From Gemmatimonadaceae bacterium (lineage in GTDB: Bacteria > Gemmatimonadota > Gemmatimonadetes > Gemmatimonadales > Gemmatimonadaceae): a stretch of DNA of 64,000 bases. Positions 28,332 to 36,257 of the stretch are shown piece after piece; the stretch's first letter is position 1; each line of letters opens with the position of its first letter. The position numbers were made by a program, and so were the translations under genes. Location: assembly GCA_036003045.1 (NCBI GenBank), contig DASYSS010000023.1, forward strand, positions 1-64,000. Reading direction: 5' to 3'. The notes beneath the pieces were generated by a model. The model saw only the letters and a program-made list of their open reading frames with translations. It was not told the origin of the DNA and made no database searches.

Positions 28332-28838
28332 CTAATGCGGCTTTGACCGTCGCTCGATCAGGATCACGCCGTTTCCGCCACGCAGCCCGTACGCGGCCCC
28401 GCTCGATCCGCGCAGGATATCGATCCGCCGAATGTCCCCGGGGTTGATGCCGGAGAGAACGAGCTCGGTCGGCACATTGGGAGACTGCGCCACGCCGTCG
28501 ACCACGATCAGTGGATCGCCTCCGCTCACCATCGCTCCGCGGATGCGCACCGTGTATCCGCCGGTGGCCGTGCGAAGCACCTCGACGCCGGGCGCGCGTC
28601 CAATGAGCAATTCCTCGACGCGCCCGACCGATGCTGCTTCTTCGTGGGTCGGGAAGATCGATGTGATGGCCGACGTGACGCGCGTACGCGGCAGCTCGCC
28701 GTAGCCGATCTGGGCGTCATCGCCCGGCGCCGGCGTTGTCGCGCTCGTGCGCCCCGCACTCACGCAGGCCAGAGCTGCTGAGGCGGCGACTAGCAGGGGA
28801 ACGATCCTGAATGCCGCCGGTCGGATACCAGTGAACAT
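28332..28838 (-). CDS. Stand-alone TonB-receptor plug-domain lipoprotein
   Basis: 168 residues. The N-terminus is a signal peptide with a lipobox-like LACVS. The rest is a single SusC/TonB-receptor plug domain: VEELLIGRAPGVEVLRTATGGYTVRIRGA, PLIVVDGVAQ, INPGDIRRIDILRGSSGAAYGLRGGNGVILI. No barrel follows: the frame ends nine residues later, and 61 bases of non-barrel DNA separate it from the next minus-strand gene region. Plug domains usually occupy the pore of a 22-strand barrel; isolated copies occur in Gemmatimonadota and Bacteroidota with unknown roles. An inverted repeat lies upstream of its start. Confidence 0.85.
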   Translation of the reverse strand: MFTGIRPAAFRIVPLLVAASAALACVSAGRTSATTPAPGDDAQIGYGELPRTRVTSAITSIFPTHEEAASVGRVEELLIGRAPGVEVLRTATGGYTVRIRGAMVSGGDPLIVVDGVAQSPNVPTELVLSGINPGDIRRIDILRGSSGAAYGLRGGNGVILIERRSKPH

Positions 28839-29934: not shown

Positions 29935-30014
29935 GCAAAAAAGAATACCCCGTTCAGACCTCGCGTGGGTTTTCGCACCCTTGTGCGTCGTATGAACATC
30001 ACGTTTCCTCACGG

Positions 30015-30563
30015 ATGCCTGCCGCCGATCGCATAAGCGAATCCGAGCTCGAACGGATCTACGACGACACGATTGCGGAGCTCTACGGCTTCGTGTCTCG
30101 CCGTTGCGGCGGCCAGCGCGAGCTGGCAGAGGACATCACGCAGGAGGCGTGGTTCCGCGCGCTGCGGCATTGGCGCGAGCACGGCGTTCCGACAAACCCG
30201 GTCGGCTGGCTGACGACCGTCGCGAAGAATCTGCTGACGAGCTATTTCCGCCGGCATCAACCGACCGCGCTGGACGAAGTCTCGCCGGCGGAGGTTCTCG
30301 CCGCGGTGGACGCGAACGCGGTCAGTGAGTCCGCCGAGGTGGCGTCGCTGGTGACGCAGGCGCTCGGGCGCATTCCCGAGGCGGAGGCGAAGCTGCTCGA
30401 GACGTTCCACTACGACCGAATGAAGACGTCCCAGCTCGCGGAGCTCTATGGAATCTCCGAGCGGGCCGTCGAGGGGAGGTTGCGGCGCGCGCGCGAACGA
30501 TTGCGCCGCGAGCTGAAGATCGCCCTCGAGGACTATGAGCAAGGAAACGGGGGTATGGCATGA
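30015..30563 (+). CDS. ECF-type RNA polymerase sigma factor
   Basis: 182 residues from ATG at 30015. Region 2: LYGFVSRRCGGQRELAEDIT followed by QEAWFRALRHW (core binding and -10 recognition). Region 4: LLETFHYDRMKTSQLAELYG followed by ISERAVEGRLRRARERLRREL (helix-turn-helix, -35 recognition). The linker is short and there is no C-terminal extension. The stop TGA overlaps the ATG of the next gene by 4 bases (ATGA), so the two are translationally coupled, as sigma/anti-sigma pairs usually are. With the receptor two genes on, this forms an apparent cell-surface signalling operon. No strong ribosome site is visible before the ATG. Confidence 0.94.
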   Translation: MPAADRISESELERIYDDTIAELYGFVSRRCGGQRELAEDITQEAWFRALRHWREHGVPTNPVGWLTTVAKNLLTSYFRRHQPTALDEVSPAEVLAAVDANAVSESAEVASLVTQALGRIPEAEAKLLETFHYDRMKTSQLAELYGISERAVEGRLRRARERLRRELKIALEDYEQGNGGMA

Positions 30564-32356
30564 ATCAGCCTGACGATCCACACACACCGACACCCGAGTT
30601 TCGGGAATCGCTCAAGCGAGAGCTCAAGCGGGCGTATCGCGCCGAGCTCCAGTTTGGAGTCCGGCCGTCGCGGTCGGCGCCGATTGGAAAGGTCGTCGCG
30701 GTGATCGGCATCGCCGCGGGCGCGGTGTTCGCGCTCACGACAGGGCTCGTGCTCGGCATGAACACCGGACCGGCGGCGGCCGAGGCGCTGGCGACCAATC
30801 AGCGAGAGGTGGCGGCGACGTCGCTGGCGACGACACGGGCGTTCACCTCGTCGCGATTGGCGTTGGCGCGCGTGGTCTACGACTCGATCCGCCGCGCGTA
30901 CGCGGCAGGGCAGGCGACGAAGGCGGATCTCGACAAAGCGAAATCGGAGGTGGACACCATGGAAGCAAACGCCGCGCAGGTCGAGGTTGACGCCCGCAGC
31001 GCTCCGGCGCCGAAGCCGCGAACCTGCCGTTCCATCTTGAAGGAAGCGCCAGTCAAGAATGCGCTCGCGGCACTCGTCTGCGGAGCGGTGGCATCGGCGC
31101 AGACGCCGGCGTCGCGGCAGCAGGGTATTCCAGTCCTCAGCCTGACCGCGCCGGTTGCGCGAACGACGTCGACGTTCGGCGCGATTCTCGGTGTGCGCGA
31201 GCTCTCCGACGGACGAGTCCTCGTCAACGACGCGGGCAGACGCCAGCTCAAGATCTTCGATGCGTCGTTGGCCAATGCGACGATCGCATTCGATTCGACG
31301 CCCGGAGCGTCGAACAGCTACGGGACGCGGGCCGACCAGATCGTCCCGTATCTCGGCGACTCGACGATCTTCAACCAGGGTTACGGCGAGCCGAAATTGA
31401 TGTTGGATGGCACGGGGCGCGCTGTGCACGCGATCGCGCTTCCCGACTACAGCGACGGCGCCACGCCATTTCCGGTCCCGTTCGCGGCCCCGCAGGCCTC
31501 GGATCCAAAGGGGCGATTGTACGCGCGCGGTGGAACGATGGTCCGGGGGGTGAACGGCGTGGGCGTGACCGCCGATTCAGTCCTCATTCTCCGTGCCGAT
31601 CTCGAGGCGCGAACGGTGGACGTCGCCGGGGCGCTGCACATCGCCGTCGGAAAAAACCGGGGCGACCCTCCCGAGAATGGCAATCGCGTCGTAACGACCA
31701 TCATCCAACCGGTGCCGACCGAGGATTCATGGGCGGTGTTGTCCGACGGGACGCTCGCCTTCGTCCGCGGGCGGGATTACCACGTCGATTGGGTGCTGCC
31801 GGACGGCGGCATGAAGTCCACGGACAAGCTGCCGTTCGATTGGAAGCGCCTCACCGACGACGAGAAACAAAAGCTCGCGGATTCGGCGAAGGTGGTTTGG
31901 GATTCTCTCATGGCGATCCGAAATCGGCGCGTGAACACGCCGGTAAATCCGGGTCGTCCTGACGGGGGAGGCGGCGACGGAGCGAATCAGGGTCGTGGTC
32001 GCTCGAGCGGCGGCGTCGACCCGACGGGACAAGCCGGGAGCATTCAGCGAATGATCTCCGTTCCACTCTCCGAGATTCCCGACTACTTCCCGCCAATTCA
32101 CCGCAACGCCGCACTGGCGGATCTCGACGGCAACCTCTGGGTGCTCACGACGACGACCGCGCAATCGCTTCACGGAGAGTTGGTGTACGACGTGCTGAGT
32201 CCAGCACGTGGGCTGTACGAACGCGTGCGCATGCCGGTCGGCCGATCGATCGCCGGGTTCGGCAAAGGCGGCGTCGTATACCTCCAGTCCGGCGACCGTG
32301 CGGCTGGGTTCACGCTCGAGCGCGTGAAGCTCGAAACCTCGAAGCCGTCGAAGTAG
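30560..32356 (+). CDS. Membrane protein (possible anti-sigma) fused to a beta-propeller
   Basis: 598 residues. Residues 1-43 are cytoplasmic and charged; a membrane helix lies at about 44-67. A helical region with ALARVVYDSIRRAYAAGQAT, then KADLDKAKSEVDTMEANAAQ, follows. Residues 160-181 then read like a second, internal signal peptide (LKEAPVKNALAALVCGAVAS, then AQT). From about 190 on it is a six-blade-like propeller (GVRELSDGRVLVNDAGRRQLKIFD, DSWAVLSDGTLAFVRGRDYHVDW, ALADLDGNLWVLTTTT). Coupling to the sigma gene suggests the first 160 residues are an anti-sigma factor, though no zinc-type motif (HxxxCxxC) is present. TTG at 31037 could be an independent start for the propeller. Function is inferred from context. 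Confidence 0.8.
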   Translation: MNQPDDPHTPTPEFRESLKRELKRAYRAELQFGVRPSRSAPIGKVVAVIGIAAGAVFALTTGLVLGMNTGPAAAEALATNQREVAATSLATTRAFTSSRLALARVVYDSIRRAYAAGQATKADLDKAKSEVDTMEANAAQVEVDARSAPAPKPRTCRSILKEAPVKNALAALVCGAVASAQTPASRQQGIPVLSLTAPVARTTSTFGAILGVRELSDGRVLVNDAGRRQLKIFDASLANATIAFDSTPGASNSYGTRADQIVPYLGDSTIFNQGYGEPKLMLDGTGRAVHAIALPDYSDGATPFPVPFAAPQASDPKGRLYARGGTMVRGVNGVGVTADSVLILRADLEARTVDVAGALHIAVGKNRGDPPENGNRVVTTIIQPVPTEDSWAVLSDGTLAFVRGRDYHVDWVLPDGGMKSTDKLPFDWKRLTDDEKQKLADSAKVVWDSLMAIRNRRVNTPVNPGRPDGGGGDGANQGRGRSSGGVDPTGQAGSIQRMISVPLSEIPDYFPPIHRNAALADLDGNLWVLTTTTAQSLHGELVYDVLSPARGLYERVRMPVGRSIAGFGKGGVVYLQSGDRAAGFTLERVKLETSKPSK

Positions 32357-32386
32357 ACACTTCGCCACTCACACAAGCATTCGGCC

Positions 32387-35300
32387 ATGCTGCTCTCGCG
32401 CATGGGCGCGGCCGTAGGCGCGCTCTTGATTGCCGCTCACGCCGCGCTGACACCAGTCGCTGCGCGCGCTCAGGTGTCGACCGACATCGTTCGCGGCCGG
32501 GTCACCGATACCGATCAAAAGCCCGTGCAGGGCGCCGAGGTGAAAGCGACGTCCTACATGGGACAGGTCTCGAAGACCGCCACCACGGACAAGGGCGGCC
32601 GCTTCACGATCATCTTCATAAACGGCGAAGGCGACTACTGGATCGACGTGCGCAAGCTCGGCCTCCAGCCGAAGCGATTCGAGGTCAAGAAGGTCGGCGA
32701 CGAGGAAGTCATGCTCGCCGACGCGCGGCTGTCGTCGGCCATCGTTTCTCTCGACGCCGTGGACATTCGCGCGCAGCGAACGCGCGCGCTGCCCGACCGG
32801 AGCTCGAAGGAGCCCGACGTCGGCGGTGGCGCGCGTCCGCTCACGAACAACCCCGTGTCACCCGACCAAGAGGGCAACCTCGCCGCCATGGCCGCCGCGG
32901 CCGGCTTTCAGTTGGTGCCTGGTCTCAATGGCGCGCCCGACATGTACTCGGTCCTCGGTCTCTCGGGCGATCAGAACAACGTGACGTTCAACGGTCTCGG
33001 CTCGGGGATCAGCGCGCTGCCGCCCGACGTCCTCGCGACGACGTCGATCAACCCATACCCGTTCGACGTGTCGCGCGGCGGATTCAGCGGAGCGCAGATC
33101 TCGATCCTGACGATACCGGGGTCGAACTTTTCGCGCCGCGTGGTCACGAACTCCAGCCTGGCGCCGCAGCTCGAGTGGGCCGACCAGCCGTCGGTTGCGC
33201 AGGGAGACCGATATACGAGCGTGCGCGTGGGCGGAAACGCCGCGGGCCCGTTCAAGGTCGATGAGATCTTCTACAACGGCGCGTACAACGTCGGACGGAG
33301 ACTCAAGGACGTGTCTTCGTTGGTGGACGCGAACGAAGCGGGTCTCATCGCCGCCGGTGTAGCGCCCGATTCAGCTGCGCGGTTGCTGAACGTACTCAGG
33401 GCGGACGGTATTTCCGTGAACCGCGGCGGAATTCCTGGGCGGCAGGCGCAGGACGTCGCGCAAGGCCTGTTCAACATGGATCTCATGCCGAGCGCGTCGG
33501 GGGCCGGCCACTCGTTCACGTTGGGACTGGCCGGCGACTTTCGGCGAACGAGTCCTGTGGACGTCGTCAGTCCGCTGCTCGCGACGCCGGGCCATGCGGA
33601 TGCAACGACGTTCTGGGGCGCGAACGCGTCGCTCGTGCACACCAACTACTTCTGGTTCGGCGTGCTCAGCAAGACCACGATCGGTCTCGCCGGACAGAGC
33701 ACGACCTCGGATCCATACCAGCGGCTGCCCGAAGGCATCGTGTCGGTCGCGTCGGCGTTGCCGCCCCCCGATGGCGGATCGTCCGTGCGGTCGTTGTCCT
33801 TCGGGGGCAACGCGCTCACCACGGCGACAGGGAATCGCACGGTTCAAATCACGAACCAGCTGAGTTGGTTCAGCCTCGACAACACCCACACGCTTCGTCT
33901 CACGTCGAGCCTCGGTCACGACACGTTCAAGAGCGACGTGGGGCGAGACCTGCTTGGGACCTTCCGCTTCAACTCGTTGAGCGACGTCGCGGCCGGCGTA
34001 CCCGCGAGCTTCACGCGCACGCTCACGAGCGCCACGCAGTCCGGCGGACAAGTCGTCGGCGCTTTGGCGCTCGGCGACTACTGGCGGCCGAAGCCCGGAT
34101 TGCAGGTCCAGTACGGCGTGCGCGTGGATGGAGCGCGATTCACCGACGTGCCGGCGGCGAATCCGGCGGTGCAAACGACGTTCGGTATCCCGAACGATCG
34201 CTTGCCGAGCGACGCGTACTTCAGCCCGCGCGTCGGCGTGCAGTGGGCGTATGGAACGTCGTCGCAGGTTGCATACGCGCCCGGCGCGGCTCGCCCGCCG
34301 CAAGCGGTGATTCATGCCGGAGTCGGCGTCTTTCAGAACGTTGCACCGTCACCGTTCGTCGCCGGGGCGATGAACGCGACCGGGCTCCGGTCGTCGTCGC
34401 AATCGATCACGTGCGTCGGATCGGCGGTGCCGTTCCCCGCGTGGGCCTCATTTCTTGGCGATCCGTCGTCGGTTCCGACCCGCTGCGCCCCCGATGGCTC
34501 CGCCGGAACTGTCTACGCCACGGGTGCGCCGAACGTCGTGCTGTTCGACCCGGCGTTTCGTGAGCCCCGCGCGTTGCGCGGCGCCGCCGATTGGTCAGGT
34601 CCGGTGTTCGACAACCGGTTCGTGCTCGGCGTGCAGGCAATCGTTTCGAACGGTCTCGACCAGGCGAGCGGGTTGGATTTGAATCTCCACCGTTCGCCGG
34701 AGTTCTCGCTGCCGGGGGAAGGAAACAGACCCGTGTTCGCCGAGGCAGCGGCGATCGTGCCGTCGACAGGGAGTATCGCCGCGGGCGCTGGGCGTGTGTC
34801 TGCCGACTTTGCTCGCGTCTGGATGCAACGATCGGATCTGGCCGTTCACTCTCGACAAGTGAAGGTAGATCTCAAGCCGATCACGGCGAACCTTCGCTTC
34901 AAGTGGGATCTCACCTACACATTCCTCGGCGTGCGAGAGCAGTACCGCGGGTTCTCGAGCACGGCGGGCGATCCATTCGCGGTGAGCTGGGGGACGCAGC
35001 CGCAGACGCCCCGCCATACGATAGATCTGCGCTGGACGGATCTTCCGATTTTTAACTTCCTCTTCCTGACGACCGTCCTGCATGCGACGTCCGGTGAGCG
35101 ATTCACGCCGCTCGTCGCGTCGGACGTCAACGGCGACGGGATGGTCAACGATCGCGCGTTCATCTTCGACCCGACGAAGTCGTCGGACTCGCTCGCTTCC
35201 GCGATGCGAACACTTCTCGCGACGGGCGCGCCCGCGGCGCGTGCATGTCTCTCGAAGCAGATCGGGCAGTTGGCGTCACGCGCGAGCTGCCAGGCGCCGT

Positions 35301-36064
35301 GGACGATTGCCAACGCCGTGCAGCTCAAATTCAACCCGGCGAAAGTCGGACTGCCGAAACGCGCGACGATCGCGCTCACGGTAGCCAACCCGCTCGGCAT
35401 TCTCGACCTGGCGCTGCATGGCGGCGCCGACACGCGCGGGTGGGGACAACAGATTCCCCCGGATGACAACCTGCTCTATGTACGCGGCTACGACCCGACA
35501 ACCCGCGCGTTCAAGTACGACGTCAACCAGCGCTTCGGTTCGACGCGCCCGCGGGAGTCCGTGACGCACACGCTGCCCTTCGTGAGTCTTCAAGTGAGCG
35601 TCGACGTCGGAGTTCCGCGCGAGCGGCAGTTACTCACGCAGCGGCTCGAGGTCGGTCGCACGAGAGAGGGAAGCCGTGCGACCCCCGAGTCGATGAAGAA
35701 CTTCGCGACGAGCGTGATTCCCAACCCGATGGCGATGGTGCTCACCCAGCAGGAGGAACTGAAGTTGACGCGGGCGCAGGCCGACAGCCTGGCGACGCTC
35801 AGCTACAGGTTCTCCCTGTTCGCCGACTCGGTGTGGACGCCGGTCTCCGACTATTTCGTCACGTTGCCGGAGGTGTACAGCCACGGCGAGGCGTACTCGC
35901 GATACGTGTCGGCACGCGAACGAACGATCGACTACCTGATGACGCTCGTGCCCGCGGCGAACGGTGTGTTGACCGGAACGCAACGGCGGCAGCTGCCGTT
36001 GCAGATAGCCAATTATCTCGACCTGCGAGTCTTGCGGTATCTCCGGTCGTCGTCGGCACCGTGA
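32387..36064 (+). CDS. TonB-dependent outer-membrane receptor with CarboxypepD_reg domain
   Basis: 1225 residues. The signal peptide ends near AARAQ. Residues 33-110 form a carboxypeptidase-regulatory-like domain (VRGRVTDTDQKPVQGAEVKA, TDKGGRFTIIF). A plug-like region follows (MYSVLGLSGDQNNVTFNGLG, PYPFDVSRGGFSGAQISILT), then a long beta-strand-rich barrel. Some 120 C-terminal residues are helical (LTQQEELKLTRAQADSLATLSYRFSLFADS), an extra module after the barrel that I associate with Gemmatimonadota receptors. No TonB box is certain. It is the third gene of the sigma operon, 30 bases after the propeller gene, and presumably imports or senses a large substrate across the outer membrane. Confidence 0.9.
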   Translation: MLLSRMGAAVGALLIAAHAALTPVAARAQVSTDIVRGRVTDTDQKPVQGAEVKATSYMGQVSKTATTDKGGRFTIIFINGEGDYWIDVRKLGLQPKRFEVKKVGDEEVMLADARLSSAIVSLDAVDIRAQRTRALPDRSSKEPDVGGGARPLTNNPVSPDQEGNLAAMAAAAGFQLVPGLNGAPDMYSVLGLSGDQNNVTFNGLGSGISALPPDVLATTSINPYPFDVSRGGFSGAQISILTIPGSNFSRRVVTNSSLAPQLEWADQPSVAQGDRYTSVRVGGNAAGPFKVDEIFYNGAYNVGRRLKDVSSLVDANEAGLIAAGVAPDSAARLLNVLRADGISVNRGGIPGRQAQDVAQGLFNMDLMPSASGAGHSFTLGLAGDFRRTSPVDVVSPLLATPGHADATTFWGANASLVHTNYFWFGVLSKTTIGLAGQSTTSDPYQRLPEGIVSVASALPPPDGGSSVRSLSFGGNALTTATGNRTVQITNQLSWFSLDNTHTLRLTSSLGHDTFKSDVGRDLLGTFRFNSLSDVAAGVPASFTRTLTSATQSGGQVVGALALGDYWRPKPGLQVQYGVRVDGARFTDVPAANPAVQTTFGIPNDRLPSDAYFSPRVGVQWAYGTSSQVAYAPGAARPPQAVIHAGVGVFQNVAPSPFVAGAMNATGLRSSSQSITCVGSAVPFPAWASFLGDPSSVPTRCAPDGSAGTVYATGAPNVVLFDPAFREPRALRGAADWSGPVFDNRFVLGVQAIVSNGLDQASGLDLNLHRSPEFSLPGEGNRPVFAEAAAIVPSTGSIAAGAGRVSADFARVWMQRSDLAVHSRQVKVDLKPITANLRFKWDLTYTFLGVREQYRGFSSTAGDPFAVSWGTQPQTPRHTIDLRWTDLPIFNFLFLTTVLHATSGERFTPLVASDVNGDGMVNDRAFIFDPTKSSDSLASAMRTLLATGAPAARACLSKQIGQLASRASCQAPWTIANAVQLKFNPAKVGLPKRATIALTVANPLGILDLALHGGADTRGWGQQIPPDDNLLYVRGYDPTTRAFKYDVNQRFGSTRPRESVTHTLPFVSLQVSVDVGVPRERQLLTQRLEVGRTREGSRATPESMKNFATSVIPNPMAMVLTQQEELKLTRAQADSLATLSYRFSLFADSVWTPVSDYFVTLPEVYSHGEAYSRYVSARERTIDYLMTLVPAANGVLTGTQRRQLPLQIANYLDLRVLRYLRSSSAP

Positions 36065-36149: not shown

Positions 36150-36170
36150 GGCAACTGCAACTGCGACGGC

Positions 36171-36212
36171 AAGTGCAAGTGCAAGTGCAAGTGCAAGTGC
36201 AAGTGCAAGTGC
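36171..36212. repeat. Seven tandem copies of AAGTGC
   Basis: A perfect 6-bp tandem array following imperfect AACTGC units from 36151, at the 3' side of the M50-like gene. On the minus strand it would read as a Leu-Ala repeat, not considered coding. Confidence 0.92.
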
Positions 36213-36257
36213 AACTACGTACACCCGCACGCCCGTCCACCAAGTCGTGTAGCGACG

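Follow-up and report, generated by a model that had tools for sequence, protein, structure and literature searches.

The ECF operon and its gene products

The subject of this analysis is a three-gene operon in a 64,000-nucleotide stretch of a Gemmatimonadaceae genome (assembly GCA_036003045.1, contig DASYSS010000023.1, positions 1 to 64,000), referred to below as the window, which is part of a draft genome of 5.37 Mb. The operon encodes, in this order and all on the plus strand, an extracytoplasmic function (ECF) sigma factor, a membrane protein with a beta-propeller (here called the regulator) and a TonB-dependent receptor. This gene anatomy had been outlined in a preliminary description made from the sequence, and the open reading frames and coordinates agree with it: the regulator starts inside the stop codon of the sigma gene (ATGA, 30560-30563), giving a 4-base overlap, and 30 bases separate the regulator stop from the receptor start. 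The features are as follows.

29964..29989, plus strand: inferred operon promoter, CGTGGGTTT (-35 type), 12-base spacer, GCGTC (-10 type); a gapless motif common to related loci
30015..30563, plus strand: ECF sigma factor, 182 amino acids (Pfam/NCBIfam matches; close homologues only beside the same partner gene)
30560..32356, plus strand: fused membrane regulator-propeller protein, 598 amino acids, conserved in three species
30560..30685, plus strand: cytoplasmic segment, residues 1-42, with the motif HxPxxxFxxxL...R, a putative sigma-binding helix (H8, F14 and L18 invariant in 15 homologues)
30686..30757, plus strand: transmembrane helix, residues 43-66 (hydropathy 2.4; model helix 43-65, low confidence)
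30767..31000, plus strand: predicted periplasmic helical hairpin, residues 70-147, truncated relative to the coiled coil of stand-alone homologues (AlphaFold model, homologue comparison)
31040..31108, plus strand: segment 2, weakly hydrophobic, residues ~161-183, putative relic of a propeller signal peptide (position of stand-alone signal peptides)
31127..32341, plus strand: NHL/SMP-30-like beta-propeller, residues ~190-594 (AlphaFold model and Foldseek)
32387..36064, plus strand: TonB-dependent (Oar-like) receptor, 1225 amino acids, without STN (domain matches and fold)
32489..32689, plus strand: carboxypeptidase regulatory-like domain, receptor residues 35-101 (PF13620, E 2.6e-13)
35618..36049, plus strand: helical tail after the barrel, receptor residues ~1078-1221 (conserved in all aligned homologous receptors; model helices)

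Two further species of the genus (G001 and G002) have these genes in an identical order, the conservation of which had been proposed for checking, with identities across these operons of 76-79% for the sigma factor, 53-63% for the N-terminal part of the regulator, 63-68% for the propeller and 67-68% for the receptor. The 4-base overlap of sigma and regulator genes is found in 3/3 fused operons, and the receptor starts 2 to 30 bases after the regulator. Nonsynonymous divergence (dN) is lower than synonymous divergence (dS) in every domain, which points to purifying selection, junction domains included; in the dN/dS comparison the linker and segment 2 are the least constrained parts overall. Because the same three genes recur at 53-79% identity in two other species, with dN < dS for each domain, the three-gene order is, judged from this conservation, more than chance. 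No sigma-70-type promoter was found inside the fused operons, and no RNA family in the region.

The sigma factor has the usual domains of the ECF type (Sigma70_r2 at E 2.5e-12, Sigma70_r4_2 at 1.1e-7). In the AlphaFold model of the regulator, the cytoplasmic segment forms a helix (residues 12-32) and a disordered linker lies between hairpin and propeller. The large beta-propeller announced from the sequence is recovered by structure prediction from about residue 190, its best PDB fold matches being NHL/SMP-30-type propellers (E ~1e-8), and it has no Pfam or NCBIfam match. Since the single membrane helix (TM1) carries positive charge on its N-terminal side, the hairpin would lie in the periplasm. 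The propeller is most likely periplasmic as well, because segment 2 (hydropathy 1.2-1.4, compared with 2.4-2.6 for TM1) is too weakly hydrophobic for a confident transmembrane assignment and stands where stand-alone propellers have their signal peptide. In the fused gene of G002 (locus L045, near 9554, minus strand), the relic signal peptide (MRTAIAALTCGAAS) begins with an ATG, which could conceivably serve as an internal start for an unfused propeller; at the corresponding position the window reads GTC.

The receptor barrel is that of a TonB-dependent receptor by fold (best match YddB, E 3.9e-15), in a structure model that is moderate in quality overall and poor in the plug. By Pfam, a Plug domain is matched in 13/18 members of the receptor family but not in the window copy, and PF25183 (OMP_b-brl_4) is matched by 12/18 aligned members, with the window receptor under the curated cut-off. 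The STN domain, which the preliminary description had not seen, is indeed absent, as it is from 18/18 receptors examined, and so is a FecR domain. The carboxypeptidase-regulatory domain and the helical tail had been thought to stand in place of STN; this did not hold, as both are general to the receptor family and replace no STN. Since 18 aligned homologous receptors without a nearby sigma gene have the tail too, its reading as a signalling extension tied to the sigma factor was rejected, and profile searching turned up no relative for it in the PDB.

A sigma factor and its usual partner

Homologues of the regulator were searched with its N-terminal 168 residues and then with the alignment as query, which returned the three fused genes and 12 stand-alone genes of ~300-340 residues. 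The partner gene lies directly 3' of a sigma gene of the same kind in 15/15 loci across the class, with the 4-base overlap in 12/15. The stand-alone partners share the cytoplasmic motif HxPxxxFxxxL, followed by one membrane helix and a long coiled coil, and none of these 12 genes has a receptor or propeller beside it. In the reverse direction, all sigma matches at E < 1e-15 in 148 relatives (7/7) adjoin such a partner, and a search of genome contigs with the sigma factor alone gave only the G001 loci as close relatives. Sigma divergence follows partner divergence (r = 0.89). Homologous gene orders lacking the sigma gene had been named as grounds for doubt; they exist for the receptor-propeller pair, but in the searches made the fused protein or its N-terminal part was never found without an adjoining sigma gene.

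The idea of a Fec-like anti-sigma part fused to a propeller can thus be kept in one half: the N-terminal part is the partner of the sigma factor (15/15 loci), but it is no relative of FecR. By sequence comparison, the regulator is a separate family, which normally carries a longer periplasmic coiled coil in place of the propeller. Because of the constant linkage, the likely co-transcription and the conserved cytoplasmic helix, the second protein is taken to be the regulator of the sigma factor, most likely an anti-sigma factor. The stand-alone modules (L091-L097, L112-L116), with sigma factor and ~310-residue coiled-coil protein, are found in Gemmatimonadota and have the same promoter, and no further target was recognised for them.

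Receptor-propeller pairs and the origin of the fusion

Propeller relatives occur in 88/148 related genomes, the match nearly always starting from about residue 140, and are secreted proteins with their own signal peptide, encoded just 3' of a receptor gene. At unfused loci with enough flanking sequence the propeller gene is immediately preceded, on the same strand, by the receptor gene (29/29), whereas at the fused loci the receptor gene follows (3/3). A profile that detected sigma genes in control loci found no ECF sigma gene in the 18 unfused neighbourhoods that were read over their whole length, and a family-wide sigma link of receptor-propeller pairs was therefore rejected. With 29 residues invariant among the fused and the 30 stand-alone forms, the propeller has probably kept, after fusion, the function of the free protein beside its receptor. 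In the genome of the window, one locus (L060, 5620-8304) has one receptor gene followed by two tandem propeller genes, and contig 26 of G004 carries a run of several propeller genes.

The three fused loci group as a single clade in the propeller tree as in the receptor tree (support 100/99), and in each tree their sister is the unfused locus L046. The simplest history that these trees and neighbourhoods suggest is that two older modules were joined once, in a single fusion clade: the partner protein of the sigma module would have been cut after its first hairpin, joined to a propeller gene via the remains of the signal peptide, and placed before the receptor gene.

A promoter motif with one probable target

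The upstream regions of the 15 sigma genes can otherwise hardly be aligned, yet they share the gapless motif CGTGGGTTT-N12-GNGTC, near-exact in 14/15 loci, with a mismatch in the first block in the remaining one; the motif of L113 deviates at the end of the second block. Its form, a -35 block with a GTC-type -10 block, fits an ECF promoter. Promoter sites were scanned in a sample of 395 genomes of the phylum, 11 of them sigma-bearing, with the reversed pattern as control. Exact sites were found in 10/11 sigma-bearing genomes, and all of these (11/11) immediately precede the sigma gene. Of the remaining 384 genomes, 19 contain exact sites, 20 in all, none near such a sigma gene and at about the background of the reversed control (Fisher p ~1e-11 for sigma-bearing versus other genomes).

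In the 5.37-Mb genome, 29964-29989 is the sole exact site, and sites with one mismatch number 6, compared with 4 in the control; the other receptor-propeller pairs of this genome have no promoter site. With its sole exact site at the sigma gene, the sigma factor is therefore most likely autoregulated and drives one target, its own operon. A wider regulon was considered and found unsupported, given the one exact site and the control level of one-mismatch sites. The receptor gene sits in this operon behind the only motif, and in the clade of the window the receptor was, from its position, most likely brought under the control of the sigma factor.

A proposed signalling circuit and its alternatives

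The reading that we favour, and hold to be reasonably likely, sees here an ECF sigma circuit that regulates itself and has its own three-gene operon as target, and in which the regulator reports on the receptor via its propeller. The short cytoplasmic helix of the regulator would hold the sigma factor; the protein would cross the inner membrane once, and its hairpin would place the propeller, normally a free periplasmic partner of the receptor, in the periplasm as a part fused to the regulator. The regulator would then be altered or released when the receptor takes up its ligand or when the propeller receives material, and the freed sigma factor would transcribe its single promoter to give more sigma factor, regulator and receptor. 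Receptor activity would in this way be reported to the sigma factor via the propeller, in place of the STN-FecR contact, and the cell would probably sense through the receptor whether to make more of it. The anatomy, its conservation, the two source modules, the single fusion clade and the single-copy promoter motif shared by the loci come from the sequences themselves; we infer the anti-sigma (rather than activator) role, the periplasmic position of the propeller, its contact with the receptor, and the mode of release. Several observations weigh against this circuit: only three genomes with the fused form are known, and one or more of these is a metagenome assembly; the regulator matches none of the known anti-sigma families, and its cytoplasmic part has only ~42 residues and one predicted helix; the positive charges of segment 2 lie on its supposedly periplasmic side, which makes the location of the propeller uncertain; and shared history alone would give correlated divergence of sigma factor and partner.

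The regulator could alternatively be a pro-sigma factor, an activator like the N-terminal fragment of FecR, whose cytoplasmic segment is needed for activity after cleavage. The 59 N-terminal residues of FecR are needed for sigma activity (PMC7406223), pro-sigma fragments of ~50 residues have been described (PMC9249621), and the cytoplasmic part here is similar in size, with its invariant H/F/L motif; the regulator has no FecR homology, however, and genetic linkage is compatible with either sign of regulation, so that we regard an activator as unlikely. The fusion might also be a structural tether, by which a propeller anchored to the inner membrane assists the receptor while the sigma factor takes another signal via the hairpin, which is presumably how the stand-alone partners act. 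Stand-alone sigma-partner modules do occur without propeller or receptor, and the hairpin is retained in the fused form, but in one and the same clade the propeller took the place of roughly half the original coiled coil and the receptor gene was put behind the promoter of the sigma factor, which leaves a mere tether rather improbable.

A cytoplasmic propeller, with segment 2 as the second helix of a two-pass membrane protein unrelated to receptor sensing, would agree with the somewhat hydrophobic character of that segment. We give it little credence, as segment 2 is far less hydrophobic than TM1, has its positive charge on the wrong side and stands at the signal-peptide position of homologues whose propellers are secreted. 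That the genes are accidental operon neighbours, or an assembly artefact, could be argued from the occurrence of the fused form in three genomes only; the shared order and spacing in three species at 53-79% identity, the purifying selection across the junction domains and the single clade in two trees make such an accident exceedingly improbable.

Beyond the favoured circuit, we tentatively advance, as quite possible, that it represents a separate class of outer-membrane-to-sigma signalling outside the FecR/STN lineage, made by fusing the periplasmic propeller partner of a receptor onto a hitherto unrecognised minimal anti-sigma family, with the receptor as sole target of a sigma factor that has a single promoter. 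The fused circuit is found in a few Gemmatimonadaceae from soil. Since the two parent modules have survived alongside the fused clade and its unfused sister, the assembly of a surface-signalling circuit appears to have been caught with its steps separately testable. It suggests that a receptor can be linked to a sigma factor with neither FecR nor STN. The system also points to a candidate family of anti-sigma factors that is new and has a sharply defined promoter, and it offers a first clue to the function of the receptor-propeller pairs abundant in Gemmatimonadaceae, in which the propeller would be a periplasmic partner and might sense a ligand.

Two further features flank the operon in the window. 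Shortly 3' of the receptor stop, at 36151-36214, the hexamer GCAAGT is repeated in ~10.7 copies. At 28332-28838 on the minus strand, a protein of 168 residues is encoded that is barely more than a TonB plug (PF07715, E 3.7e-13) behind a lipobox-like AALAC, and hence an orphan plug lipoprotein.

Comparison with known systems

Among the open-licence papers searched, no description of an operon of anti-sigma factor, propeller and receptor was found, in line with the preliminary description, which had known of no such layout. Classical surface signalling relies on the STN-FecR contact (PMC9249621, PMC11637429). With Fec-type signalling (FecI-FecR-FecA, FpvA, FoxA) the present operon shares the ECF sigma factor, a single-pass inner-membrane regulator with a periplasmic sensor part, a TonB-dependent receptor and likely positive feedback on the receptor gene. 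Unlike in the Fec type, there is no FecR or STN domain, the regulator bears a propeller, regulator and receptor genes lie in the sigma factor's own, apparently autoregulated operon, and the receptor is Oar-like with a carboxypeptidase-regulatory domain. Neither the regulator nor its homologues have a Pfam or NCBIfam match to the FecR family, and with no STN in the receptors a relation to either was rejected. As proposed, the circuit would work like cell-surface signalling while having neither a FecR-family regulator nor an STN domain, both of which define that type.

The CnrH-CnrY-CnrX system, with its class II anti-sigma factor, resembles the present one in a very short cytoplasmic anti-sigma segment and a helical periplasmic sensor part, which is CnrX. 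There, CnrY and CnrX are separate proteins, and neither receptor nor propeller takes part. No similarity of the regulator to CnrY was detectable, and a profile search did not find CnrY. The class II (CnrY) type has a short segment with two sigma-wrapping helices, of which the length fits, while one helix is predicted here; the regulator falls outside class I (ASDI), having ~42 rather than at least 50 residues, no Cys motif (Hx3Cx2C) and no Pfam match. Anti-sigma factors below 50 residues have been discussed as a class (PMC7406223).

On the receptor side, the arrangement of CarboxypepD_reg, plug and barrel is shared with the Oar-like/OMP_b-brl_4 receptors, from which the window receptor differs by its helical C-terminal tail and a score under the curated cut-off. 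The BtuG-BtuB pair of Bacteroides likewise combines a beta-propeller protein and a TonB-dependent receptor in one operon, BtuG being a seven-bladed surface lipoprotein without a sigma link (PMC10404256). It offers, by analogy, a precedent for a propeller working with a TonB-dependent receptor, although BtuG is on the cell surface; the stand-alone propellers here have a signal peptide without a lipobox, and in the window form the propeller comes after an inner-membrane helix. Another unusual variant of cell-surface signalling in which the receptor side is altered is PUMA3 (VreA-VreI-VreR) of Pseudomonas aeruginosa, with a 4-base overlap between the genes for sigma factor and receptor (PMC2729926). 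VreA has kept the STN-type domain and lost the barrel (PMC2729926), whereas the window receptor has the barrel and no STN; PUMA3 is the closest exception described so far, and its loss is the reverse one.

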